Assembly: GCA_003598085.1 (NCBI GenBank)
Contig: QZKU01000031.1
Coordinates: 1 to 45,993, forward strand
Direction of reading: 5' to 3'
DNA from: Candidatus Abyssobacteria bacterium SURF_5
GTDB lineage: Bacteria; Abyssobacteria; SURF-5
Length of the DNA: 45,993 nucleotides
Part shown: positions 3,685 to 40,800 of the stretch, one piece after another
Numbering within the stretch: the stretch's first letter is position 1
Layout of the letters: the number at the start of each line of letters is the position of its first letter
Program-made: the position numbers and the translations under genes
The notes under the pieces: model-generated
Told to the model about the DNA's origin: nothing
Database searches by the model: none
Seen by the model: the letters and a program-made list of their open reading frames with translations, nothing else

Positions 3685-3719
3685 AGGAGGACTCCTTGAC
3701 GAGCCGGCAAGACAATGCC

Positions 3720-4520: not shown

Positions 4521-4567
4521 AACTAAAGGTAAAGGGTTCCGGCTGCCGCACCACAAGATTTAGGGCG

Positions 4568-4597
4568 AGTATACCAGCCGAAAAAGGCACTTGTCAA
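4568..4597 (-). promoter_or_regulatory. Leftward promoter of the MBL/AraC unit
   Basis: On the minus strand, -35 TTGACA (4597-4592) and -10 TATACT (4573-4568) have an 18-bp spacer. The -35 lies in the left half of the perfect palindrome TTGTCAATTGACAA (4591-4604); the rpoN promoter uses the right half. Confidence 0.75.
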
Positions 4598-4626
4598 TTG
4601 ACAAACGTATGAAGTTGAGATACAAT
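4598..4626 (+). promoter_or_regulatory. Rightward promoter of rpoN
   Basis: -35 TTGACA (4598-4603) and -10 TACAAT (4621-4626) have a 17-bp spacer; start expected near 4633. It is back to back with the leftward promoter, so both -35 boxes share one 14-bp palindrome. A protein bound there, or RNA polymerase on one side, would exclude the other side (inference). Confidence 0.8.
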
Positions 4627-4669
4627 TGTGTGAGAAAATCAAGGAGAGAAAGGGGTAAAATACAGGTCA

Positions 4670-10743: not shown

Positions 10744-10938
10744 ATCGTTATTTTATTTTTTATACAAATGGTTGAAATATGGGGACAGAGACCGTATTTA
10801 AATCCTTATTTTATTGTTTTTATATATGGTTGAAGCGTAAAAGCCCGTTCCGCTGCCCGTGCCCGTTGAAGAAGCTCTGTTACCATATGGATATTACTAT
10901 TAATAACAGTTTAAATATGGTGTCTGTCCCCATATTTT
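10716..10938. repeat. 223-bp element with 29-bp perfect terminal inverted repeats
   Basis: The arms 10716-10744 and 10910-10938 are perfect 29-bp reverse complements containing the GGGGACAGACACCAT motif. A second direct copy of the left arm with two mismatches lies at 10775-10803. The interior is AT-rich and non-coding. The left arm overlaps the 3' end of the E1 alpha gene, and the right arm ends 14 bp before the E1 beta ATG. It could be a MITE-like or REP-type element; no transposase is nearby. Confidence 0.85.
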
Positions 10939-10952
10939 TAGGAGCGAGGTAA

Positions 10953-25544: not shown

Positions 25545-25810
25545 CTTGTCTCGGGGACAGGCACCATTCTACGAACTTAAAAAGGCATAAGTTCCGTAAA
25601 TGGAGCCAGTCCCCTTCGCTTGGGACAGTCCCCGACGCCTGTGAATTCCGTAAATGGAGTCAGTCCCCTACGCGGGCGCGATCGTGGGGTACACGTCTCC
25701 GTGATGATTGAAGCTTCGGGGACAGACACCATTGATGCTCTGGGGACAGTCCCGAATCTACGAAATTTACACTACAAAATTTCCGTAATTCCTGGGACAG
25801 TCCCCACGAA
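25545..25810. repeat. GGGGACAG hairpin repeats, several copies
   Basis: Copies of the GGGGACnGnCnCCATT...AATGGnGnCnGTCCCC hairpin. One complete copy runs 25552-25615 with inner stem GAACTT...AAGTTC. Partial or variant copies follow to 25810. A short duplication of the 3' end of the preceding gene (25675-25720, repeating the bases after its ACGGGC... end near 25468-25510) is visible. Non-coding. Confidence 0.8.
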
Positions 25811-25811
25811 A

Positions 25812-26200
25812 TGCAACCACCAAGACACAAAGGCACGGAGAACCCCAAGAGATTAAGAAAGTCGTTGAACCGCGGAGACGCGGAGGACGCAGAGGCAGGA
25901 AAAAGGGAAAAAAGAAAATCAGGATTTGCATTTCTCTGCGCCCTTTGCGCCTCTGCGGTTAAAATGGATTTAAAAGATACCCTTAAAGAAAAAAACCGGC
26001 CGAATGAATTCGGCCCTACCGCCTTGGGCGTTCGAGCGGCAGGTGCTTACCACGGCAGGTGCGAATTCATTCGCACAGTCTTCGTCGCCGAAGAAAGACC
26101 GGCCTGGCGGATAGAAATGCAACCACCAAGATACCAAAGCAGGGAGAACTACAAAAAACCCTTGGTGTCTTGGCGCCTTGGTGGTTAGATTTTTCGTCGC
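25812..26200. repeat. Octamer hairpins, CGCGGAGG hairpin and GTAG-REP pair
   Basis: 25812-25850: left half of a CACCAAGA block. 25868-25965: AACCGCGGAGACGCGGAGG ... CCTCTGCGGTT inverted repeat. 25997-26015 GGCCGAAT REP faces 26056-26075 GTGCGAAT REP. 26119-26190: complete CACCAAGA/TCTTGGTG hairpin. Non-coding. Confidence 0.82.
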
Positions 26201-26224
26201 AGTCAGTCGCGTGGGGGTGGCGCA

Positions 26225-26460
26225 ATAGTCCGGCACATAGACCCTATTCTACGCCCTCGGCAAGCTCGGACCGTAAATAGGGTCAGTCCCCGCCGCCCGG
26301 GCCGTAAATGGAGCCAGTTCCCTTCTCGAGACCTGTAGGGGCGGGTTTCAAACCCGCCCGAATGAAGTGCACATGACGGAGAGGAAGCCTTCACGGGAAG
26401 GCTCATTCAATCGGCAGGTGCGAATTCATTCGCACAGTCTTCGTCGCCGAAGAAGACTTC
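26225..26460. repeat. Variant GGGGAC-type hairpin and two GTAG-REPs
   Basis: 26227-26325: variant with CACATAGACCCTATTCTACG and AATAGGGTCAGTCCCC arms. 26336-26360: GTAGGGGCGGGTTTCAAACC-type REP. 26412-26440: GTGCGAATTCATTCGCAC REP. 26330-26440 is the reverse complement of most of 31745-31850. The remaining bases to 26535 carry half of a CACCAAGA block and no gene. Confidence 0.78.
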
Positions 26461-26535
26461 GGACCCCGGATGAAACATAAACCACCAAGACATAGAGACA
26501 TGGAAAGTTATCAATCCCCCATATAGACGTGTCTC

Positions 26536-27633
26536 ATGCAGAAACCCGCGAAAAAACAGCCGCAGCAACCCGACGAACATCATTTTGATGCCGCGGGCGA
26601 GACGCTCTTCATCAAACTTCCAAAAGGCGCCGTCGCAACGTGGCAAACGTCTTCCCGCATGACGATCGAGGCCGGCGGCGGCATACTCCGCGGGCCCGCC
26701 TCATTATTCACGCTCGGTAAGGGCACATTCAAGATCAATCCCGTTTCCGCCTGCCGGGTTTCCGCGGTCTTCGAGCATCCCGTCTACCTCGTGAGCTACC
26801 TGAGACTGGCCGATATCATGAAGAACCGGTACGTGTTCACGGTTCAGCTCCGGCCCGACTGGCGCGTCAACCTGTGGCCGCACCTGTTCGGCGCGTACGC
26901 GAGGACCGGCCAATGGCCCACCCGCAAGCGCGACTACGCCAGATTCTTCCGGCTCATCCTCGAACAGGCCGATCTCGATGCGCTCGCGCGCGCCGATTCG
27001 AAAACGCGCCTGCAGAAAATGAGCAGTTACCTCTCCCTCGCCGCGCTGGTGAAGGTCGGCCGAAACACGACGGCGCGCCGGCTGGCGGCGGAACATGGCG
27101 AAAAGATAATCCGGAAACTGCTCGAGGCGGAATATTATCCGGAACTGCTGGCCGAGGTGGACGCTTTCAATTCGCTGAAAAAGGCGGGCGGCATCGTGCC
27201 GCTCACCGGCGCGCTCGCGCAGGATGAGACCGGCCTGAAGACCCCATTCGAGATCGCGCGCCCGCAGCGCATCGAGGTGCGGGGCCGCTGTTCGGTTGAA
27301 TTCATGTGGGAGTATGGCGAGCACTATGACGGCGGGCTGCTGTGCTCGTCCATCGAGCTCACGCCGAAGGCGCCGCTCGCGCTGCCCGGGCGACTCCAGG
27401 TGAGCGCCCCGCGCGCGCATTTCGTCCTCGATACCGGCGCAAAGACCGCCTACGGCGCCACGTTTCCTGCGCCGCTCATTTGCAAGGGAGAAGATGCATC
27501 CATCAGCATTTCCAATGGCTCTCCGGGCGCGCTCGCAAACATCAAGCAAGGAATTGCCGGTTTCCTCTCGCGCCGCCCGCCCCGCCGCGATCCCGGCAGC
27601 CTCGCAATCGAGATCGCCGCAACCGAAATCTGA
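26536..27633 (+). CDS. Unrecognised soluble protein
   Basis: A 365-residue protein I do not recognise. No signal peptide or TM segment. Residues about 15-85 look beta-rich (ETLFIKLPKGAVATWQTSSRM, GGILRGPASLFTLGKGTFKINPVS). About 90-220 is helical and basic with several Arg/Lys and aromatic residues. About 220-365 is again beta-like and ends in a proline/arginine linker (RRPPRRDP). The two-part beta-helix-beta pattern could be a carbohydrate-binding or AIM24-like fold; the first 60 residues loosely recall the AIM24/TRAP-like family (speculative). No Shine-Dalgarno is seen before ATG 26536. Its neighbours are repeats and another unknown gene at 24779. Confidence 0.65.
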   Translation: MQKPAKKQPQQPDEHHFDAAGETLFIKLPKGAVATWQTSSRMTIEAGGGILRGPASLFTLGKGTFKINPVSACRVSAVFEHPVYLVSYLRLADIMKNRYVFTVQLRPDWRVNLWPHLFGAYARTGQWPTRKRDYARFFRLILEQADLDALARADSKTRLQKMSSYLSLAALVKVGRNTTARRLAAEHGEKIIRKLLEAEYYPELLAEVDAFNSLKKAGGIVPLTGALAQDETGLKTPFEIARPQRIEVRGRCSVEFMWEYGEHYDGGLLCSSIELTPKAPLALPGRLQVSAPRAHFVLDTGAKTAYGATFPAPLICKGEDASISISNGSPGALANIKQGIAGFLSRRPPRRDPGSLAIEIAATEI

Positions 27634-27649
27634 AAAGCCGCAACCAAAA

Positions 27650-28020
27650 AATCCTGGAAACACGAATTACATGAATTTGACGAATTACACGAATGAAATC
27701 CCTTCTTCTGGTCATTCCTGCTCCGCCTGCGGCGCTGCCGCCAGGAATCCAGAATACGCGGCACAGCCATGCCTGCCACGCGTCTCGCGTGGTCATCTCA
27801 AGCTTCCTCTCGAAGAGCGTTAGCGCCTAAGCTGAGCGTCGCCTAAGCTGACCGTCTGCCTCTCGTGTGAAGTCACGCCTGGCGTGATCACGCGCCTCGC
27901 CGGCAACGGAGCCAAGCAAAAAAAGAATCATCTCCTCTGTTTCCTCCGTTATCTCCTGTTTAAGGTATTTCCTCTTCTTATCTTTCCGGTGTCTTGGTGC
28001 CTTGGTGGTTAGATTTTATT
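27650..28020. repeat. Repeat block: CACGAATTA nonamers, CTCCGTTA and TCTTGGTG repeats
   Basis: 27660-27697: tandem nonamers CACGAATTA-CATGAATTT-GACGAATTA-CACGAATG. 27937-28020: a copy of the block seen at 24385-24465 (CTCCGTTATCTCCTG, then TCTTGGTGCCTTGGTGGTT). Between them (27700-27930) is unremarkable sequence with GCC-rich palindromes such as the hairpin around 27776-27795. No gene is supported in 27634-28104. Confidence 0.75.
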
Positions 28021-28110
28021 TGAAAAACCTTTATCCCTGCCTCCCATAGCGGAGGCGCGTGTCAGGAGCAAAAATGTAACAAGGGAATCGCTTTTCAGCG
28101 GCGGGTGCTC

Positions 28111-28538
28111 ATGTGGCAGGCGCAGAAAAAGGAAATTCAGATTATCATCAAGTTCATCTCGGTTCTGGAGCGCGTGCAGCTTGTCTGCGCATCAGTCCTG
28201 TTTCTGGTCATCGTCGTTGAGGCGGCGGGGCTGTTTGGGGGAACACGGGTTTTCTTGGAAAGACGCTGCTGTTCGCCTGCTCGCTCGCCCTGTTTCAGAC
28301 AGGCGTTCTTTATCTCATGTTCTACCATTGCAACCGGAACAGCAGATACCGCGATAAAATGAGGATGTTCCTGGTTCACATGTCCGTTCTCCCATTCGTT
28401 TTCGTCGTCGCAACCGGAATCTCGTATCTGTTCGTTCAAATCCCTCTGATTCACTTCGCGTACGCCCTTGCCTGCCTCTCGCTCATCCCCGTCTTTCATC
28501 TCACCTTCCGCATTCTTGTCTCGCGACAGTTGGTTTAG
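28111..28538 (+). pseudogene. Frameshifted small membrane protein, four TM helices
   Basis: Two overlapping reading frames encode one protein. From ATG 28111 the first part has a hydrophobic VCASVLFLVIVVEAAGLFGG, then runs out of frame to 28362. The rest continues in the other frame as LGKTLLFACSLALF and three more membrane segments to the stop at 28538 (RILVSRQLV). Adding one G to the G-run at 28237-28241 joins them as GLFGGNTGFLGKTLLF without a gap, giving about 143 residues and four TM helices. So either a one-base deletion or a homopolymer error. A GTG at 28105 is an alternative start. Function unknown. Confidence 0.75.
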
Positions 28539-28610
28539 GAAACAGAGCATCTGTTATAATACGACTCAGTTAAGCATTTTCTGGATTATAGTAAACATCG
28601 AGGAGGTCTT

Positions 28611-29345
28611 TTGATCTTGTGGAGATTGAAGAGACTCATTAAGCGGAATGCGTTTGCGCTTTCAAAAGAGCCATTTGCTAAAGGTCAAAGTGACCGTGCT
28701 ATCGAAATCCCTTGGGCAATAGCCAAAGCTCGCGGAATGAAAGAAATACTTGAGATCGGTTTCGCAAGAGGCGAAGAAATATGGATAAAGTCTCTGCTTT
28801 CTCTTCCACGTAAAGAATTGTATGGAATAGATCTCTATGATAGAAGCATGTGGAGATTACCCGAGCTCATGGGGAAGATGAAGAATGTTCGGGGAGATAT
28901 CCTGCATCCGCCCTATAAAGAAAGCTCTTTTGACTGCGTGCTTTGCATCTCGACGCTGGAACATGTCGGTATGAACTCTCATAAGGTGAGAAACCCCTAT
29001 GGTGCCCCGCCCTGGCCGACAGAGCCCGAATGGTTTCTCAAACATAAGGAAGATTTTGAGACTGTCAAAGAGATCAAGCGAATTCTCAAGAACGGAGGAA
29101 AGCTGCTTCTAACAGTTCCATTTGGAAAGCTCTCCAACTATGGCAGCCATATTCAATATGATGCTACCAGACTCAAGCAGATTGCTGCGTCAACCTCTTT
29201 ACTGATTACTGACGAGGCTTATTTTGAATACCGGTTTGATGGTTGGTATACGAGTTCCGCCGAGAAGCTTTCTGACGTCCTTTTTCAAACTTGTGGTGCG
29301 CCAGCATCGACCGGTTTAGCATGTCTTGAGCTGAGGAAAATCTAG
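28611..29345 (+). CDS. Class I SAM-dependent methyltransferase, AT-rich
   Basis: 244 residues. Motif I ILEIGFARGEEIW (about 46-58) deviates from the usual GxGxG (GFARG); acidic GIDLYD follows strand 2, then FDCVLCISTLEHVG (about 103-116) and LKNGGKLLLTVPFGK. It is closest to FkbM/Methyltransf_11-like proteins of surface-glycan clusters by pattern. The start is TTG 28611 behind GAGGAGG, which is strong. The coding sequence is clearly AT-richer than its neighbours (about 43% GC in one 60-base line I counted) and uses AAA/GAA/ATA more, suggesting recent transfer. A TATAAT at 28555-28560 may be its -10. Confidence 0.85.
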   Translation: MILWRLKRLIKRNAFALSKEPFAKGQSDRAIEIPWAIAKARGMKEILEIGFARGEEIWIKSLLSLPRKELYGIDLYDRSMWRLPELMGKMKNVRGDILHPPYKESSFDCVLCISTLEHVGMNSHKVRNPYGAPPWPTEPEWFLKHKEDFETVKEIKRILKNGGKLLLTVPFGKLSNYGSHIQYDATRLKQIAASTSLLITDEAYFEYRFDGWYTSSAEKLSDVLFQTCGAPASTGLACLELRKI

Positions 29346-29373
29346 AAACAGCTTCAGTTAATAGCTCAAGACA

Positions 29374-29619
29374 TTATATTCGCACTTTCAAGAGCATCAG
29401 AATGATGCCAACGAGATTGGCAATGATCAAAGTGACGAAACCCCAGAACATGTTGGTCAGCCTGTCGACCTTCGCCTCGATCCGCTCGAGATACGCCGCC
29501 TCCGCCTTCTGCGAGAGAATGTGATCCAGCCGCTCGATGTTTTCCTCGAGCAATCGAATCTGCTGAGCGTGCGCGGCCCCTATCGGGCAAATTCCGTTTG
29601 ACATCGTTTCCACCTTCAT
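29374..29619 (-). CDS. XhlA-like coiled-coil membrane protein
   Basis: 81 residues: an N-terminal coiled coil (QQIRLLEENIERLDHIL...RIEAKVDRL, about 20-54) followed by one TM helix (FWGFVTLIIANLVGIILMLL). Size and layout match XhlA/hemolysin-type phage proteins that accompany holins. ATG 29619 overlaps the fibre stop as ATGA; an internal ATG at 29604 with AAGGTGG five bases before it is also possible (76 residues). Last gene of the phage module. Confidence 0.7.
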   Translation of the reverse strand: MKVETMSNGICPIGAAHAQQIRLLEENIERLDHILSQKAEAAYLERIEAKVDRLTNMFWGFVTLIIANLVGIILMLLKVRI

Positions 29620-31472
29620 GTTTGCGTTGAGCTGGCATCCGCACTATATGCGGTCCCGCATCCGAAATAGTTTTGCGTCGAGACGCTGACTCCCAGACTT
29701 GCGTCCGTATTGCGAATGCCGACCGTTTCACTATTGATGTAACTTGCATAGGCCCCACCAGCAGTCATTAACGTCGCATTTCGGTTGCAGAAAATTCCAT
29801 AATTAGTATTTGCGTAAGTATAGCTGTTGTAGATGTTAACTATCGCTCCTTCCGTCACCTGAACGCCGACGCTGCCGCAGGAGCGGAAATAGGATCGGGA
29901 GAGCGTTCCCGCGGCCAACTGTCTCAGTATGAGACCGATGTTTCCGACGTCGTCGGCGAAGATCGCCTCGGACGAGCCGGCCGAGTCGCCCGTGCCTTTC
30001 AGGACCGAAAGGCTTTTAATTTCAAACGCGCGGCTGGTCACGTTCGTTGTCGCCGCCCGAAGCCCGATCAGCGAAGCGGCGCTCGAATTATCGAGTACAA
30101 CGAATTGAGCCGCCGCGGTGCACTGCAGAAACCGCAGGGTGACGCCTCGCTGTTCGTCGAGCCTGATCGAAATATTGCCCGCGCCTCCGTTGACACTTGT
30201 GCCGAGCGAATCGATTGAATAGGCGCTTGTCGCGTTGGGGACAGTGGTCCATTGGCCGGCGATCGTAATCGATGTGGCGGTGTTGCTTGCGATCCAGGCA
30301 AGCTGGCCGCTGCCGGTTCCGGCGGTAATGCGCAGCAGCTTATACTGGTGCGCGTTAGTTCCCCACGATTTGCTTGTGTCGCTGAGCGTCGTTGCGGTCG
30401 CGCCGGTCGCGGTCCCGGCGTCGCTGTTGACCAACGCGCCTTGCAGCGTGACCGATGCGCCCGCCGAGCCCATGGTCTTGCCGGCGAAAAGAAGCGCCTC
30501 GGGATAGGTCCCGGCCGCGATATCGATCACGATCGGTTCGAGCACGACGGCGGGAACGGCGTCCCAGGCGCGCTGGATCGTTGCGAAGGGCGCCGCCGAA
30601 GTGCCGGGATTCGCATCGTTGCCGATGGCGCCGTTGACCGAGATGGTGCGCGTGCCGCCGGAAAGCTCGCCGCAGGTGGTCCCGAGCTCCAGATTCACGC
30701 GGTCGCCGCCCGCGCCGATGAATTTGAGGTCTTCGCCGTTGACGTTGATCGAGCCGATCGAGGCGAGCGCCGGTTGCTCGTTGTTCTCGGCATCTATCTG
30801 CGTGTGCGCGAGGTCGGTGATATCGGCCTCGGTGTGCTGATGGCCGGGCGCCGAATAGTCCGTTCCGGCCGCCGCGATCGAGAGCACGCCGGTGGCCGTC
30901 GTGTTCTTCAGCAGTCCGCTTTCGAGATCCGCAAGCGCCTGCTCGGCCGAGAGCGCGGCGTCATGCGTTTGGGTGATATACGTGGCGCCGACCGGCGCTC
31001 CCGAGCCGGATGAGCCGGTGAAATATTCGTCGAATCCGAGCTCGATGCTCGCATAACACTGGCCGGGCGCCGGAACGCCGGCCGCGGTGACCGCCCGCGC
31101 GAAGATGCCCGCCTGCGGCGAATCGACTCCTTTCGCCTTGCCCGCGGTCGCCGACGTGATCAGCCATTGTCCGCGGGTGACCGTTCCGACCACGTTAACC
31201 GCCACGCGGCCGCCGTCCTGCCTGATTATGCACAGGTTGCCGGCCGTGACCGATTCGTCCGCGACGCCCGCAACGGCCTGCGCGCCCTCGACCGCAGTCG
31301 TCTTCACGCCGTAATCGGCGGTCGGGTCCCACACGACGACGTCGCCCGCGCTCACCGCGGTGGTCGCATAAAACGTTGTGGCCGCGATTGCGCCGCCGCA
31401 CGCAACGATGAGCACCAAAAAGACAACAGCCAGAGTTACGATCGTTTTCATTTTCCGTTTCCTCCCGTACAT
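29616..31472 (-). CDS. Phage-like beta-helix fibre/appendage protein with N-terminal signal-like segment
   Basis: 618 residues from ATG 31472 (or 611 from ATG 31451; both have Shine-Dalgarno sequences). The N-terminus MKTIVTLAVVFLVLIVACGG is a signal or anchor segment, unusual for a virion protein. Then come a small domain with VVVWDPTADYG, a linker with HQHTEADITDL (the HxH-Tx-DI pattern of tail fibres), and a long right-handed beta-helix-like region of Ser/Ala/Thr-rich short repeats (about 300-600) containing ISVNGAIGNDANPGTSAAPFATIQ, typical of pectate-lyase-like folds. Probably the tail fibre or a surface appendage. An in-frame extension to 31697 is repeat sequence and is excluded. Confidence 0.75.
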   Translation of the reverse strand: MYGRKRKMKTIVTLAVVFLVLIVACGGAIAATTFYATTAVSAGDVVVWDPTADYGVKTTAVEGAQAVAGVADESVTAGNLCIIRQDGGRVAVNVVGTVTRGQWLITSATAGKAKGVDSPQAGIFARAVTAAGVPAPGQCYASIELGFDEYFTGSSGSGAPVGATYITQTHDAALSAEQALADLESGLLKNTTATGVLSIAAAGTDYSAPGHQHTEADITDLAHTQIDAENNEQPALASIGSINVNGEDLKFIGAGGDRVNLELGTTCGELSGGTRTISVNGAIGNDANPGTSAAPFATIQRAWDAVPAVVLEPIVIDIAAGTYPEALLFAGKTMGSAGASVTLQGALVNSDAGTATGATATTLSDTSKSWGTNAHQYKLLRITAGTGSGQLAWIASNTATSITIAGQWTTVPNATSAYSIDSLGTSVNGGAGNISIRLDEQRGVTLRFLQCTAAAQFVVLDNSSAASLIGLRAATTNVTSRAFEIKSLSVLKGTGDSAGSSEAIFADDVGNIGLILRQLAAGTLSRSYFRSCGSVGVQVTEGAIVNIYNSYTYANTNYGIFCNRNATLMTAGGAYASYINSETVGIRNTDASLGVSVSTQNYFGCGTAYSADASSTQT

Positions 31473-31489
31473 AGGTTTTCTCCTTTCCA

Positions 31490-31900
31490 GCGAAGGGGAC
31501 TGACTCCATTTACGGAATCCACGCTTATTCCGATGCTCGTTGAGCGGAGCGAAATCACGCGCCTCGCGTGATAGAATGGTGTCTGTCCCCGAAGCCTCCA
31601 AAAGCCTCAAATCAACCACCAAGACACCAAGACACCAAGAAGATTCCTTCTTATTCTTTATGTTTCCTCTGTGCCTTTGTGTCTTGGTGGTTCGCATTTC
31701 ATTCCGGGCGCATCGAAGGTTCTTTCTTCAACAGCGAAGACTGTGCGAATGAATTCGCACCTACCGATTGAATAAGGCTTCCCATGAAGGTTTCCTCTCC
31801 GTTATTCGCATTTCATTTCGGGCGGGTTTGAAACCCGCCCCTACAGGTTTTGTATCCTAATCCGCGAAAATCCGCGTAATCTGCGGATACACGCCTTTTT
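31490..31900. repeat. Repeat block between fibre and tail-hub genes
   Basis: 31493-31595: GGGGACTGACTCCATT...AATGGTGTCTGTCCCC with the long inner loop. 31618-31690: CACCAAGA triple octamer facing CTTTGTGTCTTGGTGG. 31742-31765: GTGCGAATGAATTCGCAC REP. 31825-31850: GGGCGGGTTTGAAACCCGCC REP. 31857-31890: AATCCGCG/AATCTGCGG nonamers. Confidence 0.85.
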
Positions 31901-31901
31901 C

Positions 31902-34900
31902 TTAAATGATTTCTTCCCATCCGCAGTCCTCGACCACGTCGCGCGGAAGCCGCAGATAGCCGCCTGCGGTCGCCTCGGCCGCGCGCGTCGAACCGATGTT
32001 GAACCACACCTTCTCCGCGTCGGCCTCGATCGCGTCTTCGGCGCCCGAAAACGCAAGCGCCTGATCGCCCAGAATATCCGACGGAACCAGCAGATTCCCC
32101 TTCTCGTCGAATTCCATGACGCGCGTCCCGTCGGAGAGCGCGAACGCGATGCATTCGCGAGCGCCGTCGTACAAGATCGGGTAGCCCGCCGCGGGCGGCA
32201 ATTCCTGATCGCCCACAACGAATCCCTTGAGATACAGCCTGCCGTCAATCGACAGGCACGCCGCGAGAAGACCGCGAATGACGAAATAGAAATTCTGCTC
32301 GTCGAGCTTGATGAACGTAGCGCCCGAACCCGTCCAAAAATATTCGTACCGTTCGAGCTCGGCGCAGAAGCCGATGGCATCGAGCTCGCGCCGGTCGGTT
32401 CGCCCGGAAACGAATGCCGTCTCGATCAACTCGCCCTTCACCTTGAGCAGTCCCTTTTCGAGATCGGTGATCTCGGCGACGTCGCCGCGCTCAAGATTCA
32501 AATCCCGCAGGAACGAGGTCCACCGATAACGCCGCCGCGGGATCGAGTGTCGGCCCAGAAAGAACTGGAGGAGGCTCTGGACATAGGAGGCGTCGCGGAG
32601 CGCAAAGAATTCATGAACCTTTGCGCGCGCGCCGAAAGACTCGCGGCTCTCGCCGTCCGCCACCTGAACAATTCCCGCGTATCTGTCGGCCAGAGTTCCT
32701 TTCCTGCTGTAATCGCGCGAGTGATAACCGGTGAGCATGTTGCGGATCGCGGAGACGCCGGCATGCTCGAGCCGGACCGATGCCGCCGCCCGATGAGCCG
32801 GCGCGATGACGCGGACCGGATTCTCGAGCGACTCCGCCCGATAGAAAAGGGAGAATCTGCCATTGAAGGCGAGGCGGCTGCGCGCCTGCTCGGCCAGCTC
32901 GAACAACAGCCGGGCCGCGCTTATTCGCTCGCACAACGAGAACGCGAATGCGGCGCCCGCGGCCTGAAGCGAGGAGCGCGCCTCCGCGAACGAGGCCGAA
33001 TCGATATGGGCCGCCTCGCTGAGACCGAGCACGTCCACGAGGATGTGCCGGATCACGTCGGCCGGATTCTCGAGCAACTCGCCGGTCCCGTCGCCGCTGG
33101 ATTCGATCCCTTGCACCGTGCAGGTGACGTCGTCGCTGATGATCTCCTCGAGCGGCGCGTATTCGACCTCGAAGAAGACGTGCAGGATATAGCCGAGCAC
33201 CCCGTCGTCGGCGCCGGCGACGTTGTAATCGACGCTGATCTCGCGGCCGGTGAACCAGCCCCAGTCATTCGCCACGAGGTCGGTTATGTCCACCGCCTCC
33301 ACGACCGAGGTCGAGCTGATCGGCTCTTCATTGATGACATGATGGTGTGCCGCCGCGTAGGCGCCGACGTCGGCGCTGTCCTTCGTGCCGGGACCCTCGT
33401 ATTCGATCGGCTGTTCGAGATATTCGAGCTCGTACCAGACGCCGAACAGCCGGATCAAACCGGTGCCGAGCGGAATGATCGCAATGTAGGTATTCGAGTT
33501 TTCGAGGTCTTCCCAGTTCAGGCCGCTGATCGTTTCCCAGCCCGATTTCCAGGTTTCCGGCGTCGAGCTGCCGGAGACGGTATACTGTTTCGCCTGCACG
33601 CCGTTGTGATAGAACCTCAGAACAAACGAGCCGACCATTCCGCTCTCGCCGCGGCGGCAGCAGAATTGAATGCGCTGAACGCTTCCTTTCGATGTCGTGG
33701 CCGCAAGCGTGCAGATGAGATTCCTGTCGGTGCTCGCCGTGGTGGTGTAGCCGCTCCTGTCGAGGTTGTTGCCGGCGATATCGTTCAGTTCGGCCCAACT
33801 GCCGGTGGTCCCGCCGGTTTGCGCGACGGTATTCGTGAACAGCGCCTCCTTCTTGACCACCATCGAATGCGTGTGTTCGCCGGTGATCGAGTGGGCGTGC
33901 CCGTGATCGACGTCCACCTCGCCGCCGCCGCCTGCCACGTCCTCCTCGCCCGGGCCGGCAAGCCTGAAGGTCTGGGCGGCAACAGTGACGCTGAGGTAAT
34001 CGTCGGCGAACGCGGTGCTCTCGAAATGCTCGACCACGAGGAATGCCTTCAGGATCTCGCCGCGCGCGTCCGCGTTCGGGCTCATGTCGGTGGTCTGCCT
34101 GATGCGAAGAGAGTCGTTGCCGGCGGCGCCGGAAATCCTGGCGACGAGCGTCGCGAAGCCCTCGAGCGTGGTGTAGTAGCAATGCTCCGGATCGAGCGCC
34201 TCGTTGCCCGCCGCCGTCTCATCGAACTGCATCTCGAGGAACCGAGACGCGCGCGAATACCTGCGCACCTTCGGCCGGTTCGTAAACGTGATGGTGGCGA
34301 GCGCGGCGCCGGGCAGCAGCGCCGTATTGTTGCAGTCGATGGCGCACGAGCCGGCGTCAACCGGCACGCCGGCCACGCGCACGCTCTCGATCGATTTGCA
34401 TGCGTGGCATGCGACGAGATAGATATGATCGGTCATATACTCGATTACATCGGCACGGTTCAAGTGCTCGGCGGCCTCCGTCCCGTTCGCTCCGCGCGTG
34501 CAGCCGGTGAAGACAGTCTCGCTTCTGCCCGAATAGGTGATCTGTTCGTCCTCGATCAGAAGCGTGCCCGCATCCGGGAAGCCGCTCGTGTCGTCCACCT
34601 CGATCGTGGTATCCGCCGACAGGATGCTTCCGCGCAGACTGGTCGAGCGGCCCACCTTCGCCCGGACCGCGGGCACGCGCGGAACTTGTCCGAAAATGAG
34701 AGGGACCGGCCGCCCGACGTCGTCCGGATGAGCCGCGGGAAAATTGGCGGCCGAAACCAGCATCTCGGGCAGCGCCCGATCGTACCTGCCGAACAGCGGC
34801 TCGATGATGAGCTCGATCCGGTCGTCACGCAACTGCGCCTTTTCGATGTGCCCGGAAAACAGGTCGACAACGTCGGCGGCCGTCAGCGGTTCGAAAAAAA

Positions 34901-35195
34901 GCCTGACGCGCGCCGGCTTGCCCTCGGGGATCGACGCCGTCACCCGCTCGAGGAGCGATTCCTCCGGCGCAAGCGCAACCGTGACCGGCTCATATTCGGC
35001 CGAAGGATTCTTGAAGGAGGCGCTTATCGGGCTTATGGCGAGAATGATTCCGGCGTAGCTCGTGCCGTCGATGGTGACCGGCCGCTGGGAATAGCGACCG
35101 GTCAAGATATCTGTCCACTCAACCTCGAGCAGCAGCACCGGCCGGTTGTATGCGGCGGCGCATTCAATGAGCGTTTGCGGCGTCAGCGATTTCAT
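31902..35195 (-). CDS. Large phage tail-hub/baseplate-like protein
   Basis: 1097 residues from ATG 35195 (GGGGAGA upstream). The N-terminus (LLLEVEWTDILTGRYSQRPVTIDG) and the early part (EPVTVALAPEESLLERV, FGRYDRALPEML) look like a tail-hub domain. Around 225-275 is a DDTSGFPDAGTLLIEDEQITY / FTGCTRGANGTEAAEH segment, common to tail-associated phage proteins. Later beta-rich domains and a C-terminal hub-like part (LENPADVIRHILVDVLGLSE) end in receptor-binding or carrier domains. It is comparable in place and type to GTA gp13/gp15 or lambda J-type host-specificity proteins. It is the largest gene in the window. Four His residues in DHGHAHS and the HTHSM motif could bind metal. Confidence 0.75.
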   Translation of the reverse strand: MKSLTPQTLIECAAAYNRPVLLLEVEWTDILTGRYSQRPVTIDGTSYAGIILAISPISASFKNPSAEYEPVTVALAPEESLLERVTASIPEGKPARVRLFFEPLTAADVVDLFSGHIEKAQLRDDRIELIIEPLFGRYDRALPEMLVSAANFPAAHPDDVGRPVPLIFGQVPRVPAVRAKVGRSTSLRGSILSADTTIEVDDTSGFPDAGTLLIEDEQITYSGRSETVFTGCTRGANGTEAAEHLNRADVIEYMTDHIYLVACHACKSIESVRVAGVPVDAGSCAIDCNNTALLPGAALATITFTNRPKVRRYSRASRFLEMQFDETAAGNEALDPEHCYYTTLEGFATLVARISGAAGNDSLRIRQTTDMSPNADARGEILKAFLVVEHFESTAFADDYLSVTVAAQTFRLAGPGEEDVAGGGGEVDVDHGHAHSITGEHTHSMVVKKEALFTNTVAQTGGTTGSWAELNDIAGNNLDRSGYTTTASTDRNLICTLAATTSKGSVQRIQFCCRRGESGMVGSFVLRFYHNGVQAKQYTVSGSSTPETWKSGWETISGLNWEDLENSNTYIAIIPLGTGLIRLFGVWYELEYLEQPIEYEGPGTKDSADVGAYAAAHHHVINEEPISSTSVVEAVDITDLVANDWGWFTGREISVDYNVAGADDGVLGYILHVFFEVEYAPLEEIISDDVTCTVQGIESSGDGTGELLENPADVIRHILVDVLGLSEAAHIDSASFAEARSSLQAAGAAFAFSLCERISAARLLFELAEQARSRLAFNGRFSLFYRAESLENPVRVIAPAHRAAASVRLEHAGVSAIRNMLTGYHSRDYSRKGTLADRYAGIVQVADGESRESFGARAKVHEFFALRDASYVQSLLQFFLGRHSIPRRRYRWTSFLRDLNLERGDVAEITDLEKGLLKVKGELIETAFVSGRTDRRELDAIGFCAELERYEYFWTGSGATFIKLDEQNFYFVIRGLLAACLSIDGRLYLKGFVVGDQELPPAAGYPILYDGARECIAFALSDGTRVMEFDEKGNLLVPSDILGDQALAFSGAEDAIEADAEKVWFNIGSTRAAEATAGGYLRLPRDVVEDCGWEEII

Positions 35196-35214
35196 GATTG
35201 TTCTCCCCGATCGA

Positions 35215-35400
35215 TCCGCAGATTTCGCAGATTTCCGCGGAGTCTGTTTGCTGTGGCGATGGGTTTCATACCCGACCGAATGAAAACAAACCGCCAAGAC
35301 ACAAAGGCACGGAGCATTGCAAATAAAAATCCTCTTGGTGTCTTGGTGTCTTTGTGGTTAGCATTTTTCTTGGAAGCTGTGGGGATGGTCCCCGTCGCAA
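35215..35400. repeat. Repeats: AATCTGCGG nonamers and CACAAAGG hairpin
   Basis: 35217-35245 carries CCGCAGATTTCGCAGATTTC nonamers. 35288-35368 is a CCAAGACACAAAGG ... TCTTGGTGTCTTTGTGGTT hairpin. 35380-35400 holds a half GGGGAC motif. Non-coding. Confidence 0.7.
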
Positions 35401-35402
35401 CC

Positions 35403-35777
35403 CTACGGCTCGAAACCCTCGACGCGCAGTCTGATCGTGCCCGACCAGCGGTTGGCGCCGTCTTTCTGCCAGTCAGACGGCCCATTGAGCCAGCGGACGC
35501 TGTAGCCCAGGCCGTCGCCGTCAACGAATGAAAATACCCGCCGCATCCCCTCCGCTACATACACGTACCAGTCCCTCAGGGCCTCGTAATCGACGTCGCG
35601 CACGCCGGCGAAGGAGCGCACCAGCGTAAGCGACGGAGCAGCTTTCCTGCCGACATAGATGCCGCCATCCTGCGATATTCCGCCGGCAAGGCCCAAATCC
35701 ATCTCGTCCTTCAGCGGATACATCAATCCGTGCAGCACCAGCGAGTTTGTTTCCGATATCAAATGAACGTGTTGCAT
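35403..35777 (-). CDS. Small phage tail-associated protein
   Basis: 124 residues from ATG 35777 with CAGGAG six bases upstream (an upstream TTG at 35792 is less likely). The sequence is soluble and aromatic-rich, with a C-terminal beta-like part YSVRWLNGPSDW...WSGTIRLRVEGF. The middle has a GGISQDGGIYVGRKAAPSL stretch. I do not recognise the family; context suggests a minor tail, completion or distal tail protein. Confidence 0.65.
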   Translation of the reverse strand: MQHVHLISETNSLVLHGLMYPLKDEMDLGLAGGISQDGGIYVGRKAAPSLTLVRSFAGVRDVDYEALRDWYVYVAEGMRRVFSFVDGDGLGYSVRWLNGPSDWQKDGANRWSGTIRLRVEGFEP

Positions 35778-35819
35778 ATCGCGCTCCTGCAAAGGGTCAT
35801 ATTGGAGATAGACAAATTG

Positions 35820-36300
35820 TCCCCGATTCCCACATACAAAAGACTCAAATCAACCACGAAGGCGCCAAGACACCAAGAAGATTTTTTATTTGCAATGCTC
35901 CGTGTCTTTGTGTCTTGGTGGTTTGCATTTCATTCCGGGCGGGTTTGAAACCCGCCCCTACAGGTTCCGCGAAGGGGACTGACTCCATTTACGGAGTTCA
36001 TGCTTATTCCGATATCGTTGAGCGGAGCGAAATACAGTTTCTTAACCCTGCTTCAGCAGGGCGCCCCGCGGGATAGAATGGTGTCTGTCCCCGAAGCCTC
36101 CGCGTTGTCCCCGGGCGAAGGGGACTGACTCCATTTACGGAGTTCATGTCTTTTTGAACTCGTAGAATGGTGTCTGTCCCCGAAGCCTCCGCGTTGTCTA
36201 TCCCCAAAGCAACAATCTGTGAAAATCTGCGCAATCTGCGGATGGAAGTCTTGGTTCTTCCAATCCAAAGCTTGTCCCGGACTTTGATCCGGGATCCAAA
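35820..36300. repeat. Repeat block between small tail protein and connector
   Basis: 35852-35925: CCAAGACACCAAG / CTTTGTGTCTTGGTGG hairpin. 35938-35965: GGGCGGGTTTGAAACCCGCC REP followed by CTACAGG. 35975-36092 and 36117-36182: two GGGGACTGACTCCATT...AATGGTGTCTGTCCCC copies, the first with a long loop, the second with stem GAGTTCA...TGAACTC. 36218-36244: AATCTGTGAAAATCTGCG nonamers. An unrelated direct repeat AATCCAAAGCTTGTCCCGGA (36260-36285) recurs at 38453-38473. Confidence 0.85.
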
Positions 36301-36305
36301 ATCCC

Positions 36306-36863
36306 TTAGACTGCTCCGACGCGGGCGCGGCGATACTTGTCGAGGATCAGCGCGACCGAAAGCGGGATCGCGGCGCTCGCGAAATTGTCGGTAACTTTGT
36401 TGACCTGCCTGCTCGTGATGCCTTCCGCCCCGCGCATGAAGTACTTGAACGAGACCAATTGAATGCATGCGTCCTCGAGATCGGGCGGCGGCGATTCGAT
36501 CGCGGGATCATAGAAGCCGGCGGAATACTGAATCTCGACGTTCTGCTCGCCCGGCGTGAACAGGCGCGAGCACAATCGCACGTAGTCGTCGTACACCTTG
36601 TATTCGTCCGCTGCCATCGCCTCTTCGTCAATCGCAACGGATGCGACCGAAACGATCGGCGTGTGATCGAGGAACAGGATATCGCTCGCGTTGCCGTCAT
36701 AGAGTTCCGTTCGCGCGGTGATCCCGAACGTGCGGTTGCAGTAGGCCTCGATCTGGCGGCTCGATGCAGTTATCATCCTCGCGAGCAGTTGGTCGAATTG
36801 CGTCTCGCCCGACTCGATATCGAGATGCTCTTTCACGTTTGCGAGTGTTGTGAGATCGGCCAT
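36306..36863 (-). CDS. Phage head-tail connector (gp6-like) protein
   Basis: 185 residues of the gp6/DUF3199-type connector family. It starts DLTTLANVKEHLDIESGETQFDQLLARMITASSRQIEAYCNRTFG, the usual helical N-terminal half with the AxxYCNRxF motif. A beta-part follows (ELYDGNASDILFLDHTPIVSV) and ends with a helix (LILDKYRRARVG). It connects the portal to the tail tube in known phages, yet no portal gene is present. The start ATG 36863 is followed directly by the capsid gene upstream in the transcript. Confidence 0.85.
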   Translation of the reverse strand: MADLTTLANVKEHLDIESGETQFDQLLARMITASSRQIEAYCNRTFGITARTELYDGNASDILFLDHTPIVSVASVAIDEEAMAADEYKVYDDYVRLCSRLFTPGEQNVEIQYSAGFYDPAIESPPPDLEDACIQLVSFKYFMRGAEGITSRQVNKVTDNFASAAIPLSVALILDKYRRARVGAV

Positions 36864-36934
36864 GGAATCAGCTCCTGGTAAAGATCGATTGCGCGGCGCG
36901 GGCGCGCCGCGCCGCGCAACCTTTTCCTGTCAGC

Positions 36935-38230
36935 TTACGCGGTGATGTTGTAGCCGAGGCCGATGATCGGCTCGGCGGCTGCGTCCTGAACCGGTTGGAA
37001 ATCGAGCCGCTGTGTCGCGATGGCGACGTCCTGGTCGGTTTCCATGTACAGTTCCTGGCTCACGCGCAGGGTGATGCTCCTGCGATCGCCGTACAGAAAC
37101 GCCGGCCGGTACACCAGCGGGAGCACGGTATCGGTCGTGGTGATCCCGTCGTACACGCCGGAATCGTTGAGGTCCTCGCGGATGAACTCGCTCACGATGA
37201 CGGGGATTCCGTCGAGCTTGGCGAGTTCGCCGCTCAGGATGGTGGCATTTGCGCCGTACTTGTCGACCGTGAGCACCTCGCTCAGGTTGAGCATCTTGTT
37301 GAAGACGCTGATGCCCGCGATCCAGGCGAGGTTGTTCGGGTTGACGCCGTACTTGCCCATCGCGGCGCGGACCGCGCGCAGGTCCGTGATGTTGAACGTC
37401 GCCAGGTCCACCTTCGCCGACGCCAGCGCCAGCTTGCGGTAGCCGTCCCACGCCTTGCGAGTGTCGTTCGCGCCGGTTACGTCGCTGTCCTGGTGCGTAC
37501 CGGCGGTGTCGCCGTTGATGGTGGCGTTCTCCTGCGCCTCGGCGAGCGCCTGCACGATCTTGTCGCGCAACAGCGGAAGAATCGCCACGACGCTGTCCTC
37601 CTCGAGCTCGGTCGATACCAGCACGCGGCACGCGAGCTTGACCGCGTCGAACGTGACGTTTTTGGTGCCGGGCGTCGAAGCCGTGAACTTCGTCGCCGTG
37701 TCGCTGGTCGATTCGGCGGCCAGGTACGCTGTCGCATCCGCGCCGTCGATCGGCAGCTTGAACGGGTTCATCGGCATGACGATGCGCGCGTGCAGCGCCG
37801 CCACCTTCAGCGCCAGCTTCACCTTCTGGATCAACTCCGCCGAGAAACCGGTCGGAATCCATTCGAGCCCTTCATCGGCGGTGGCGGTGTCCATCGCCTT
37901 GCGCAAAGCGGACGCATCCTGCGAGAATTCGCCCCACATCTTCAGGCTGCGCGGGTCGCGCCGCAGCAGCTTCGAGACGAGGTAGATATCGTCGGCCCGG
38001 CGCTGCAGCTCGGGAGAGAGGTTGGGCCGCGCGAACCGGTGCGATTCGGCGTCGGTGCTGAATTCGACCTTGCGCAGCGAGCGCTCGCGCACCGCCGTCC
38101 TCTGCCGGCTGAGTGCGTCCTCGATCATCGTGTCGATCAACTTGCGCTGAGCGCCCGCGTCCACCTTCTCCTTGATGGCGCGCACCAGTTGAAGCAACTC
38201 GTGATCCGGTTTGGTCTGTACGTCTGTCAT
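36935..38230 (-). CDS. Phage major capsid protein, HK97 fold
   Basis: 431 residues. About 110 N-terminal residues are charged and helical (a delta-like scaffold, ADDIYLVSKLLRR) and would be removed by the protease. The HK97 core follows with LEWIPTGFSAELIQKVK, PFKLPIDGADATAYLAAES and DAVKLACRVLVSTELEEDS, as in many siphophage capsids, and ends with YRPAFLYGDRRSITLRVSQE. ATG 38230 has AGGAGG six bases upstream. It sits downstream of the prohead protease, the usual order, and about 70 bp before the connector. An encapsulin is unlikely because of the delta-like domain and the protease. Confidence 0.92.
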   Translation of the reverse strand: MTDVQTKPDHELLQLVRAIKEKVDAGAQRKLIDTMIEDALSRQRTAVRERSLRKVEFSTDAESHRFARPNLSPELQRRADDIYLVSKLLRRDPRSLKMWGEFSQDASALRKAMDTATADEGLEWIPTGFSAELIQKVKLALKVAALHARIVMPMNPFKLPIDGADATAYLAAESTSDTATKFTASTPGTKNVTFDAVKLACRVLVSTELEEDSVVAILPLLRDKIVQALAEAQENATINGDTAGTHQDSDVTGANDTRKAWDGYRKLALASAKVDLATFNITDLRAVRAAMGKYGVNPNNLAWIAGISVFNKMLNLSEVLTVDKYGANATILSGELAKLDGIPVIVSEFIREDLNDSGVYDGITTTDTVLPLVYRPAFLYGDRRSITLRVSQELYMETDQDVAIATQRLDFQPVQDAAAEPIIGLGYNITA

Positions 38231-38269
38231 GTGCTTCCTCCTTTTGGTTGTGGTTGTTTTATGGGGCGG

Positions 38270-38420
38270 TCTTGAACCTGCCCCTATGAGTTTGTTTTGG
38301 GGACAGTGAATGTCCGACGATTGATTCGCGTGCCTCGTTGCGATGGGGACAGCCCCGAAGCTACGCTGAAAGACGCGGCCCGTAATTCTTGGGACAGTCC
38401 CCATCGCGACCATGGGACCC
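38270..38420. repeat. GGGGACAG hairpin variants between protease and capsid genes
   Basis: 38298-38410 contains GGGGACAGTGA, CGATGGGGACAGCCCCGAAGC and TCTTGGGACAGTCCCC pieces shared with 40560-40760. 38450-38490 carries the CCAAAGCTTGTCCCGGA direct repeat. Confidence 0.7.
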
Positions 38421-38494
38421 ATCCACCGTCCCCGTAGTTCCCCATCCAAAATCCAAAGCTTGTCCCGGACCTCGATCCGGGATCTAAAATCCCC

Positions 38495-39514
38495 TTACTC
38501 CAGCATCTCCATCACTTCAGTCAGAACCGCGTGCGCCTCGGCCAACGCGAGGGGACTGACTCCATTTACGGAATTCATGCTTATTCCGATGTCGTTGAGC
38601 GGAGCGAAATCCCGCGCCCCGCGGGATAGAATGGTGTCTGTCCCCAAGCGAAGGGGACTGACTCCATTTACGGAATCCACGTCTTTTTGGATTCGTAGAA
38701 TGGTGTCTGTCCCCGGAGCCTCCGCAGTGTCTCTCCCCCGGCGAAGGGGACTTACTCCATTTACGGCCGCGCGAAGGGGACTGACTCCATTTACGGAGTT
38801 CATGCTTATTCCGATGTCGTTGAGCGGAGCGAAATCCCGCGCCCCGCGGGATAGAATGGTGTCTGTCCCCGGAGCTTCTGCAGGGTCTGTACCCATGGCG
38901 ATCTTGGCGTCTTTCCCCGCAGCCTCCTCCACGAGATCATTCCCCATGCTCAGGCCCTTGCTGACCGAAAAAAGGGCGCGCCGGTTCGCGGGGATGCTGA
39001 CGACGGCCACCTCGTAGAGCCTCAGCCGCAAGATGTGGTTGATGCCGCCGACAACTTTCTCCTCGACCACCTCGTATCCGATGCTGAAGGCGCGCAGGAT
39101 GCCCTCGCGGATCAGCTTCCACACCTTCTCCGCCGTTTCCGAGATCTCGGCCCGGATGAATAGACCGACCTCGTCGATGCGCGCTTCGACCACCTTCCCG
39201 ATGGGATTGCTCCAGTCGTGCATGTAGGTCAGCACCGGGTTCGCCATGAATTCGGTGAGGCTGTCGGCGAACGCGCCCGGCTCCACGATCTCGCCGGTCC
39301 GGTCAAGGTCGCGCGTCGAGGCGTAGCCCTCGATGCGGCGCGCGCCGTCGCCGGACTCGACCAGCTTCATGTGAAACTGGAAGGTCCTGCGGCCGCCGGC
39401 GGGGCGGGCGGAAGCGGTTCGCCCGTCCCCCTCCGACGCCGTCACCCGGTCGCCCGCCCGGTGCTGCCCGTTCTCCAAAAGATGTTCGCCTTTCACATCC
39501 GAATGCTCTGCCAT
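38495..39514 (-). CDS. Phage prohead protease (HK97 family) with in-frame repeat insertion
   Basis: 339 residues from ATG 39514 (AAAGGAG eight bases upstream). The maturation serine protease shows its catalytic region: FQFHMKLVESGDG, VLTYMHDWSNPIGKV with the histidine (about 95-109), AFSIGYEV with the serine (about 143-150), and VAVVSIPANRRALF. The enzyme should end near residue 200. Residues about 207-321 are instead repeats (GTDTIL...NGVSPLR units), translated without a stop from the repeat array at 38549-38895, and the native-looking tail ALAEAHAVLTEVMEMLE follows in frame. So the repeats grew or were inserted inside the gene while keeping the frame. It is unknown whether the longer protein is functional. 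Confidence 0.88.
   Translation of the reverse strand: MAEHSDVKGEHLLENGQHRAGDRVTASEGDGRTASARPAGGRRTFQFHMKLVESGDGARRIEGYASTRDLDRTGEIVEPGAFADSLTEFMANPVLTYMHDWSNPIGKVVEARIDEVGLFIRAEISETAEKVWKLIREGILRAFSIGYEVVEEKVVGGINHILRLRLYEVAVVSIPANRRALFSVSKGLSMGNDLVEEAAGKDAKIAMGTDPAEAPGTDTILSRGARDFAPLNDIGISMNSVNGVSPLRAAVNGVSPLRRGRDTAEAPGTDTILRIQKDVDSVNGVSPLRLGTDTILSRGARDFAPLNDIGISMNSVNGVSPLALAEAHAVLTEVMEMLE
38549..38895. repeat. In-frame array of GGGGACnGACnCCATT hairpin repeats inside the protease gene
   Basis: Two near-identical long copies (38551-38645 and 38773-38872, each with a CCCGCGCCCCGCGGG inner hairpin) flank a short copy (38647-38718, inner stem GAATCCA...TGGATTC) and a partial one (38740-38772). 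One reading frame is open through all of them on the minus strand. Confidence 0.9.
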
Positions 39515-39719
39515 ATCGGTGACTCCTTTTCTGTGGTTCGATTCAGTTCTCATGATGAAGAAATACCACACCCCGAATTCCTGAACAACGACATAGTTGT
39601 GAACGGATATGTCAGGAAAACCGGAAGATTTTTTACATCAGTGAGTTACGCGGATAATCAGAAATGGGAAAAGGGGGGAGCGGGTTTGGGCTCGGGGCCT
39701 TGGGTTTTGTTCAAAATTG

Positions 39720-39748
39720 TTGATTATCAGGAGGGTGACTGATATGAT
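39720..39748 (+). promoter_or_regulatory. Promoter of the four-helix-bundle gene
   Basis: -35 TTGATT (39720-39725) and -10 TATGAT (39743-39748), spacer 17 bp; the gene start at 39779 has GGGAGGGGG upstream. Confidence 0.55.
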
Positions 39749-39778
39749 CTTGATAACTTTTTGGGAGGGGGAACAAAG

Positions 39779-40453
39779 ATGCCTGACAATGAGCCGCTGA
39801 TTCCGAAGCACGGAGGATATCGTAAGCTGAAGACTTTCCAGATTACGCAACTGATTTACGATGTGACAGTGCGCTTCTGCGATCGCTACATTGATCGGCG
39901 CAGCCGGACCCACGACCAGATGGTGCAGGCGGCTCGGAGCGGAGTCCAGAATATCGCCGAGGGCAGCCAAGCCTCCGGCACCTCAAAGAAGATGGAGCTG
40001 AAATTGACAAACGTAGCGCGGGCCAGCCTGGAGGAATTGCGGCTCGACTACGAGGATTTGCTGCGACAGCGGCGACTGAGGCTGTGGGAGCGTGAAGACA
40101 TACGCCGATCAGAACTGATCGCGCGGCGACCCGCCAGCGTTGAGGATGTGGCGCAGTGGATAAGTGAAACGCGTGGACGTAGTGGACTGGATGGACGCAC
40201 CCGCCACGAAGAAAAGAGAGATTTTGAGGAAAACGCTGGTCCCTTATCGTCCACAATGTCCACGACGTCCATGCCGTCCACAGAGTCCACCTATCCGGAG
40301 ATCGCGGCCAATGGCGCCTTAGCTCTGATCGCCGTGGCAGTTTCTCTTCTAGACCGCCAAATCGCTGCGCAAGCCAAGGCTTTCGAGCAGCAGGGCGGCT
40401 TTACCGAACGGCTTTACCGAACACGGAGGAACAGGAGGCGAGGTGCGGAATGA
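39779..40453 (+). CDS. Four helix bundle (S23/IVP-like) protein with suffix domain
   Basis: 224 residues. The N-terminal half (about 10-120) is an S23/23S-intervening-sequence-type four-helix bundle: KTFQITQLIYDVTVRFCDRYI, SRTHDQMVQAARSGVQNIAEG, KKMELKLTNVARASLEELRLDYEDLL. After a variable, low-complexity linker (about 125-180), the C-terminal segment ANGALALIAVAVSLLDRQIAAQ and GGFTERLYRTRR matches the four-helix-suffix domain found in such proteins. The linker is encoded by a GTCCAC-type inverted repeat. Function unknown; the family is common beside repeats. It is divergent from the prohead protease, which starts 265 bp away (39514/39779). Confidence 0.82.
   Translation: MPDNEPLIPKHGGYRKLKTFQITQLIYDVTVRFCDRYIDRRSRTHDQMVQAARSGVQNIAEGSQASGTSKKMELKLTNVARASLEELRLDYEDLLRQRRLRLWEREDIRRSELIARRPASVEDVAQWISETRGRSGLDGRTRHEEKRDFEENAGPLSSTMSTTSMPSTESTYPEIAANGALALIAVAVSLLDRQIAAQAKAFEQQGGFTERLYRTRRNRRRGAE
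40172..40290. repeat. GTCCAC nonamer inverted repeat inside the four-helix gene
   Basis: Left arm 40172-40197 reads GTGGACGTAGTGGACTGGATGGAC in 9-bp steps. The right arm 40249-40290 reads GTCCACAAT, GTCCACGAC, GTCCATGCC, GTCCACAGA, GTCCACC. It codes for the low-complexity STMSTTSMPSTESTY linker. Confidence 0.8.
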
Positions 40454-40800
40454 AGGCTGGGGCTGCGGGGATAGACGCCAATCTACGAATTTTGGAAGAT
40501 GCGGATTCCGTAATTGGAGTCAGTCCCCTTCGCTTGGGACAGGCACCATTAATGCTCTGGGGACAGTGAGACTGTCCGACGATTGAGCGGCTGGTTCTTG
40601 CTCTGGGTACAGACACCATTCTACGAATTTAAAAAGGCATAAATTCCGTAAATGGTGTCAGTCCCCGCCGCCTTGCTAATCCGGTGCCATCTGCTCTGGG
40701 GACAGCCCCGAATCTACGGCCTAAAAGACGCGGCCCGTAATTCTTGGGACAGTCCCCGACGCCTGCGGATTCCGTAATTGGAGTCAGTCCCCTTCGCCCC
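40445..40800. repeat. GGGGACAG hairpin repeat cluster
   Basis: In the gap between the four-helix gene and the DUF378 gene. 40463-40535: variant copy ending in GGAGTCAGTCCCC. 40545-40575: half copies. 40605-40668: complete copy with stem GAATTT...AAATTC. 40690-40795: a copy with GGGGACAGCCCCGAATC and two GTCCCC ends. The gap 40454-40879 holds no gene. Confidence 0.85.

Follow-up and report, generated by a model that had tools for sequence, protein, structure and literature searches.

The repeat array in the phage-type head protease gene of this bacterium very probably consists of accumulated copies of a dispersed REP-like palindrome of the poribacterial lineage, inserted into the linker of a phage-derived protein. 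It lies in a window of 45,993 nucleotides, the whole stretch of DNA analysed here, which comes from contig C31 in a draft genome of 5.1 Mb and 145 contigs. Between positions 38551 and 38870, three full copies and one half copy of the palindrome occupy the Peptidase_S78 gene (38495-39571, minus strand), whose reading frame stays open through all units, as the original prediction of hairpin repeats without a stop inside an HK97 protease frame had held. When up to two mismatches are allowed, GGGGACnGACnCCATT arms are found at 27 sites in the window, compared with 0.31 expected from shuffles, and the repeats are therefore not a chance observation; seven of the 27 sites fall in 38551-38870.

All units are read on the minus strand. 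Unit 1 (38776-38870) is a 95-nt core with a nested second palindrome and encodes GTDTILSRGARDFAPLNDIGISMNSVNGVSPL. It is followed by a half unit (38746-38761), a single arm with one mismatch that encodes NGVSPL, by unit 2 (38653-38714), the canonical 62-nt core encoding GTDTILRIQKDVDSVNGVSPL, and by unit 3 (38551-38645), another 95-nt core, which encodes GTDTILSRGARDFAPLNDIGISMNSVNGVSPL and is nearly identical to unit 1 (99% over 96 nt). The array peptide reads GTDTILSRGARDFAPLNDIGISMNSVNGVSPLR / GTDTILRIQKDVDSVNGVSPLR / GTDTILSRGARDFAPLNDIGISMNSVNGVSPLA in a single phase throughout, with seven of seven arms in the same codon phase. Three units had been said to give the same GTDTIL...NGVSPLR peptide in one frame; the single phase holds, while the ending of the last unit is ..PLA where ..PLR had been given. 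The array is likewise somewhat shorter than the roughly 345 bp and 115 residues first given for it: the clear repeat cores span 320 nt, or about 110 residues, and the larger figures count a degenerate arm that extends to 38895. The repeat-derived part stops at most two codons from the conserved protease tail, and the peptide DVDSVNGVSPLR is an example of a junction between native protease residues and repeat peptide. Third-position GC is 91% for the catalytic part but only 57% for the array, a drop to be expected of intruding DNA. No Rfam families were found at the array.

The gene that received the repeats is recognizable as an HK97-type prohead (head maturation) protease by its PF04586 domain, its His/Ser motifs and the adjoining PF05065 capsid gene. 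Its likely start is the ATG at 39514, as judged by alignment with L005 and L006. Upstream of the array, the ORF matches Peptidase_S78 (PF04586, E 2e-18; residues 70-202, 38966-39364, minus strand) and phrog_80 head maturation protease (E 2e-40), and the residues H99 (YMHDW) and S144 (FSIGY) are invariant in the protease alignment. Downstream of the array, the native C-terminal tail LAEAHAVLTEVMEMLE and the stop codon (38495-38545, minus strand) are homologous to LGEAHAILKGVMEKLN in L005 and LVEIKEILKEVMEKLG in L069, and a helix is predicted there in a low-confidence model. Because the AlphaFold model of the protease is of low confidence throughout (mean pLDDT 42), it only suggests that the inserted peptide is a disordered spacer.

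Among the genomes compared, the closest relative by protease is the Candidatus Poribacteria MAG JACRIR010000239.1, with 78% identity. The catalytic part is common to L005/L007 (78%), to L069 from IMG/VR (79%) and to L006 (57%); the IMG/VR search gave no homologues with the full protease as query at first, and these were found with an alignment query. Neither L005 nor L069 has the array repeat, but both retain the catalytic domain and the C-terminal helix (EAHAVLTEVMEML in the present gene, EAHAILKGVMEKL and VEIKEILKEVMEKL in the two homologues). The linkers in between are unrelated and differ in length: 141 aa in this protease compared with 85 for L005 and, in a count by eye, about 43 for L069. 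Both homologues keep the flanking parts and lack the repeat; by homology, therefore, the roughly 110 array residues were inserted into a variable, poorly conserved linker that joins the catalytic domain to the C-terminal helix, in agreement with its proposed position between the catalytic part and a native tail.

The commonest form of the element is a 62-nt core (plus strand GGGGACTGACTCCATTTACGGAATTCATGTCTTTTTGAATTCGTAGAATGGTGTCTGTCCCC). Its many dispersed copies are REP-like: the core has 54 BLAST places genome-wide, and the arms number 101 at no more than one mismatch, compared with 0 for a reversed-pattern control. Longer forms of 77, 91, 95, 115 and 119 nt contain extra loop sequence, with a second palindrome in the 95-nt form. 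The borders are conserved (GCTTC before and TTCGC after the core). Among 42 units drawn from the window and 41 further stretches of the genome, the length with borders is 72 nt in 22; a further six measure 87 or 105 nt. When single-stranded, the element folds into a hairpin with z-scores against shuffles of -7.1 (63 nt) and -6.3 (96 nt). The GTAG/CGTC tetranucleotide was not found at the palindrome end, where GCTTC and TTCGC stand instead, GTAG being located inside the core, and for this reason we do not file the repeat under the GTAG/CGTC REP superfamilies. Exact two-arm elements occur only in this genome among the three family genomes examined, and the sister genus G001 carries a related but different GGGGACAGTCCC(G/T)ATT set; from this distribution the 62-nt family looks lineage-specific within the clade. 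A blastn search of phage and plasmid records found no REP.

The copies are mainly intergenic, with gene starts judged by eye. In the window, two units with 119-nt and 62-nt cores (35974-36181) lie between genes downstream of the adaptor gene, and a 96-nt unit (31495-31590) closely precedes the probable start of a tail-like gene. An arm cluster at 40467-40792 includes two 62-nt units (40467-40528 and 40605-40666), and a second cluster at 25553-25754 contains one 62-nt unit (25553-25614) together with further arms. The window makes up 0.9% of the genome sequence but holds 24 of the 101 arms (at most one mismatch), a density about 26-fold that of the genome as a whole, noted for 25553-40792. Since a recurring GCGGAGGCT(C/T)C precedes the copies at 35974, 36120 and 38653, some local copying inside the capsid module is suggested.

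Do the repeats preserve an open frame when they expand, as had been proposed? Within the protease they do, in so far as all units share one phase and are spaced by multiples of three, but there is no genome-wide frame keeping. When it was checked whether the same frame is open in every copy, the answer was no, most copies being intergenic and 13 of the 42 units having lengths that are not multiples of three. The remaining 29 are of 3n length; the 72-nt unit corresponds to 24 codons and the 105-nt variant to 35. The three sense phases are open in 30, 6 and 32 of the 42 units and the antisense phases in 10, 10 and 12, so in the GGGGACAG-sense orientation two of the three phases mostly lack stops. 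Given such lengths and such an orientation, a frame-keeping device is unnecessary; if the copies located outside genes were inserted at random, an ORF would stay open in 28% of cases. Same-strand spacings are multiples of three in five of five cases in the protease versus eight of 37 elsewhere (Fisher p 0.0015, which is optimistic as the spacings are linked), and thus coding constraint on the protease array is still visible. Every copy found within a gene has the sense orientation.

Could the protease gene be a decaying relic, in which the repeats landed where the gene no longer matters and the open frame is a matter of luck? The frame evidence leaves some room for this, because one antisense frame of the array is open as well, and 239 of 5000 dinucleotide-shuffled versions keep the native frame open; the crowding of arms in the window would also fit. 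The substitution ratios relative to the sister genus point the other way, with a dN/dS of about 0.1 for the catalytic part (dN 0.14, dS 1.34) and about 0.17 for the capsid gene (dN 0.14, dS 0.82), values that are averages over the whole divergence and would accommodate very recent decay. Judging from these ratios, purifying selection has acted on the protease since the two genera diverged. Moreover, the active-site motifs are invariant, the native tail is conserved and in frame after the array, and the spacings are all 3n. We consider a relic improbable.

In the homologous protease linker of the sister genus G001 (L005:1281-1536), a different dispersed repeat is present in frame. It has 40 other matching places in G001, mainly at query positions 35-70, a count that low-complexity sequence may inflate. 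Because this linker carries a different repeat, the protease linker seems to tolerate repeats and to have received them more than once. The same observation, together with the long linkers that follow the protease domain in protease-capsid fusions such as L071-L077, could also be taken to mean that the repeats were recruited and that the REP-encoded peptide is functional, for example as a scaffold-like spacer in the protease. This we regard as quite unlikely, given that the peptide is not conserved, the linkers of L005, L069 and L006 being unrelated and shorter, and that the third-position GC of the array has not been adapted. Least probable of all is a misjoining of repeats during assembly, which the near-identity of units 1 and 3 and the 145-contig draft might invite, but against which stand the unique spacers between units, the unique flanks, the native sequence in frame on both sides and similar in-frame cases in other assemblies.

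For the reading that we prefer, an insertion of mobile palindromes into a tolerant linker, a route can be proposed from general knowledge of TnpA_REP. The folded single strand of the element would be handled by a candidate RAYT/TnpA_REP-like (Y1) transposase and thereby inserted, with local duplication inside the module perhaps assisting the growth of the array. With units of 3n length that are mostly stop-free in two of three sense phases, a fair share of linker insertions would leave a working protein, and those that did not would be removed by selection. The repeat peptide would most likely be a tolerated disordered spacer without a specific task. The single insertion events and their exact borders are inferred. 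A candidate enzyme is encoded at L001, where a Y1_Tnp gene is flanked by GGGGACAGAGACC inverted ends, its flanking arms (GGGGACAGAGACCATATTT) being related, not identical, to the 62-nt family; the two other Y1 genes of the genome have no flanking arms. A second, AT-rich family with GGGGACAGA(C/G)ACCATATTT ends is found at 10717-10940 of the window, L038:2364-2434, L046:2297-2554 and L001:1332-2288. Its members are likely miniature derivatives of an element with a Y1 (RAYT-like) gene, one copy flanking that gene.

The protease belongs to a module with an HK97-type major capsid protein as the next gene (36935-38230, minus strand; PF05065) and a head-tail adaptor gene (36306-36863, minus strand). 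An ORF at 36004-36468 was rejected as coding, as it is a shadow frame over the adaptor gene. Phage head genes are located at 28000-39600 of the window, L058:7831-9015, G001:C77 and G002:C57. The original prediction called the protease a viral protein, a label open to doubt: three genera of the family each have a single copy of the capsid module, which is under purifying selection, and no match to the large terminase (phrog_2, TerL_ATPase) was found in the genome. The portal gene stands alone among ordinary genes of a different contig and is about 80% identical across the three genera; the terminase and portal that a complete tailed prophage would have beside its head genes are thus missing from this place. 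In the sister genus, an apparent cellular gene precedes the protease. Next to the capsid module, 39761-40453 weakly resembles the 23S rRNA intervening-sequence protein family, with a score below the cut-off. Instead of a prophage, the capsid module may represent domesticated or gene-transfer-agent-like phage genes. A broader reading, to which we give rather little weight, would see domesticated, vertically inherited, GTA-like phage genes scattered in the poribacterial family, with protease, capsid and adaptor together and the portal by itself elsewhere, and with the linker as a repeated landing site that turns lineage-specific repeats into a spacer in each genus.

Only the protease and a porin were found to be hit inside among the genes of this genome. 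In the DUF1302 outer-membrane porin (L028/L053; L028:279-1892, G000:C88), two elements lie in frame between the signal peptide and the barrel and are absent from two relatives, so that for the porin, as for the protease, an in-frame insertion can be set beside homologues without it. Repeats that appeared to lie within FtsY, ADH, HGD-D, DUF2959, ECH (enoyl-CoA hydratase) and the tail-like ORF at 29616 were rejected because they are upstream of the likely start. Beyond this genome, a gene of 242 residues in the IMG/VR sequence L056 contains a unit in frame; we read the contig as Mu-like by gene content, Pfam giving no confirmation. The L056 copy also folds as a single strand (z -6.95 against shuffles); the gene and its parts gave nothing in Pfam or PHROG beyond one weak chance-level match, and the predicted protein structure has a mean pLDDT of 36. 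In IMG/VR L067 (3300047185_000031; 3471-5747) a related unit is in frame in a Mu-type transposase, between the first (21-47) and second (189-231) HTH domains. The same inter-HTH linker also has repeated SVISDQ stretches, which look like another short repeat. No homologues without the repeat were found for the L056 and L067 proteins. In L064, a unit directly follows a stop codon. L063, L065 and L066 have one arm only and were rejected as further viral copies, being taken as chance matches.

The array is a known kind of event, in which mobile palindromes become protein; the host group and the target are new, the kind of system is not. Protein-coding palindromes were described as Rickettsia palindromic elements (RPE; Ogata et al. 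2000, 2002; reviewed in PMC10969869). Like these, the present elements are short mobile palindromes lying in frame at tolerated places in unrelated protein genes and giving a recurring peptide. The likeness drawn here is one of description. Our elements belong to another phylum, are mostly intergenic and hit two genes of the genome, and the main case consists of three and a half units stacked in a phage-type head protease. Intragenic REPs are known from many genomes and have been proposed to be neutral insertions in flexible protein parts, with in-gene clusters reported to code for 43 to 82 residues (PMC3733652). The palindromes described here are also mostly intergenic with few in genes, but they have no GTAG/CGTC border tag, the cluster encodes about 110 residues, and the target is a phage-derived head protease. 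With REPIN/RAYT systems (PMC3116915, PMC8266576) they share dispersed imperfect palindromes able to fold single-stranded and the presence of genomic Y1 (TnpA_REP-like) genes, of which one has similar GGGGACAG arms on its flanks. In contrast to those systems, there is one long hairpin with nested variants, and the arms at the Y1 gene are of a related, not the same, family. Enterobacterial RU units are small mobile repeats whose open frames are fused in frame into annotated genes (PMC2759123); the in-frame fusion is alike, while element, length and hosts differ. Our analysis adds a Poribacteria lineage to the hosts of protein-coding palindromes, and phage-type head protease and transposase genes to their targets, with an insert that is unusually long next to the REP clusters reported before (PMC3733652). 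The numbers show how such repeats can enter genes, most units being whole codons and stop-free in one orientation, and the array provides a small natural test of the foreign peptide load that a phage head protease can bear.
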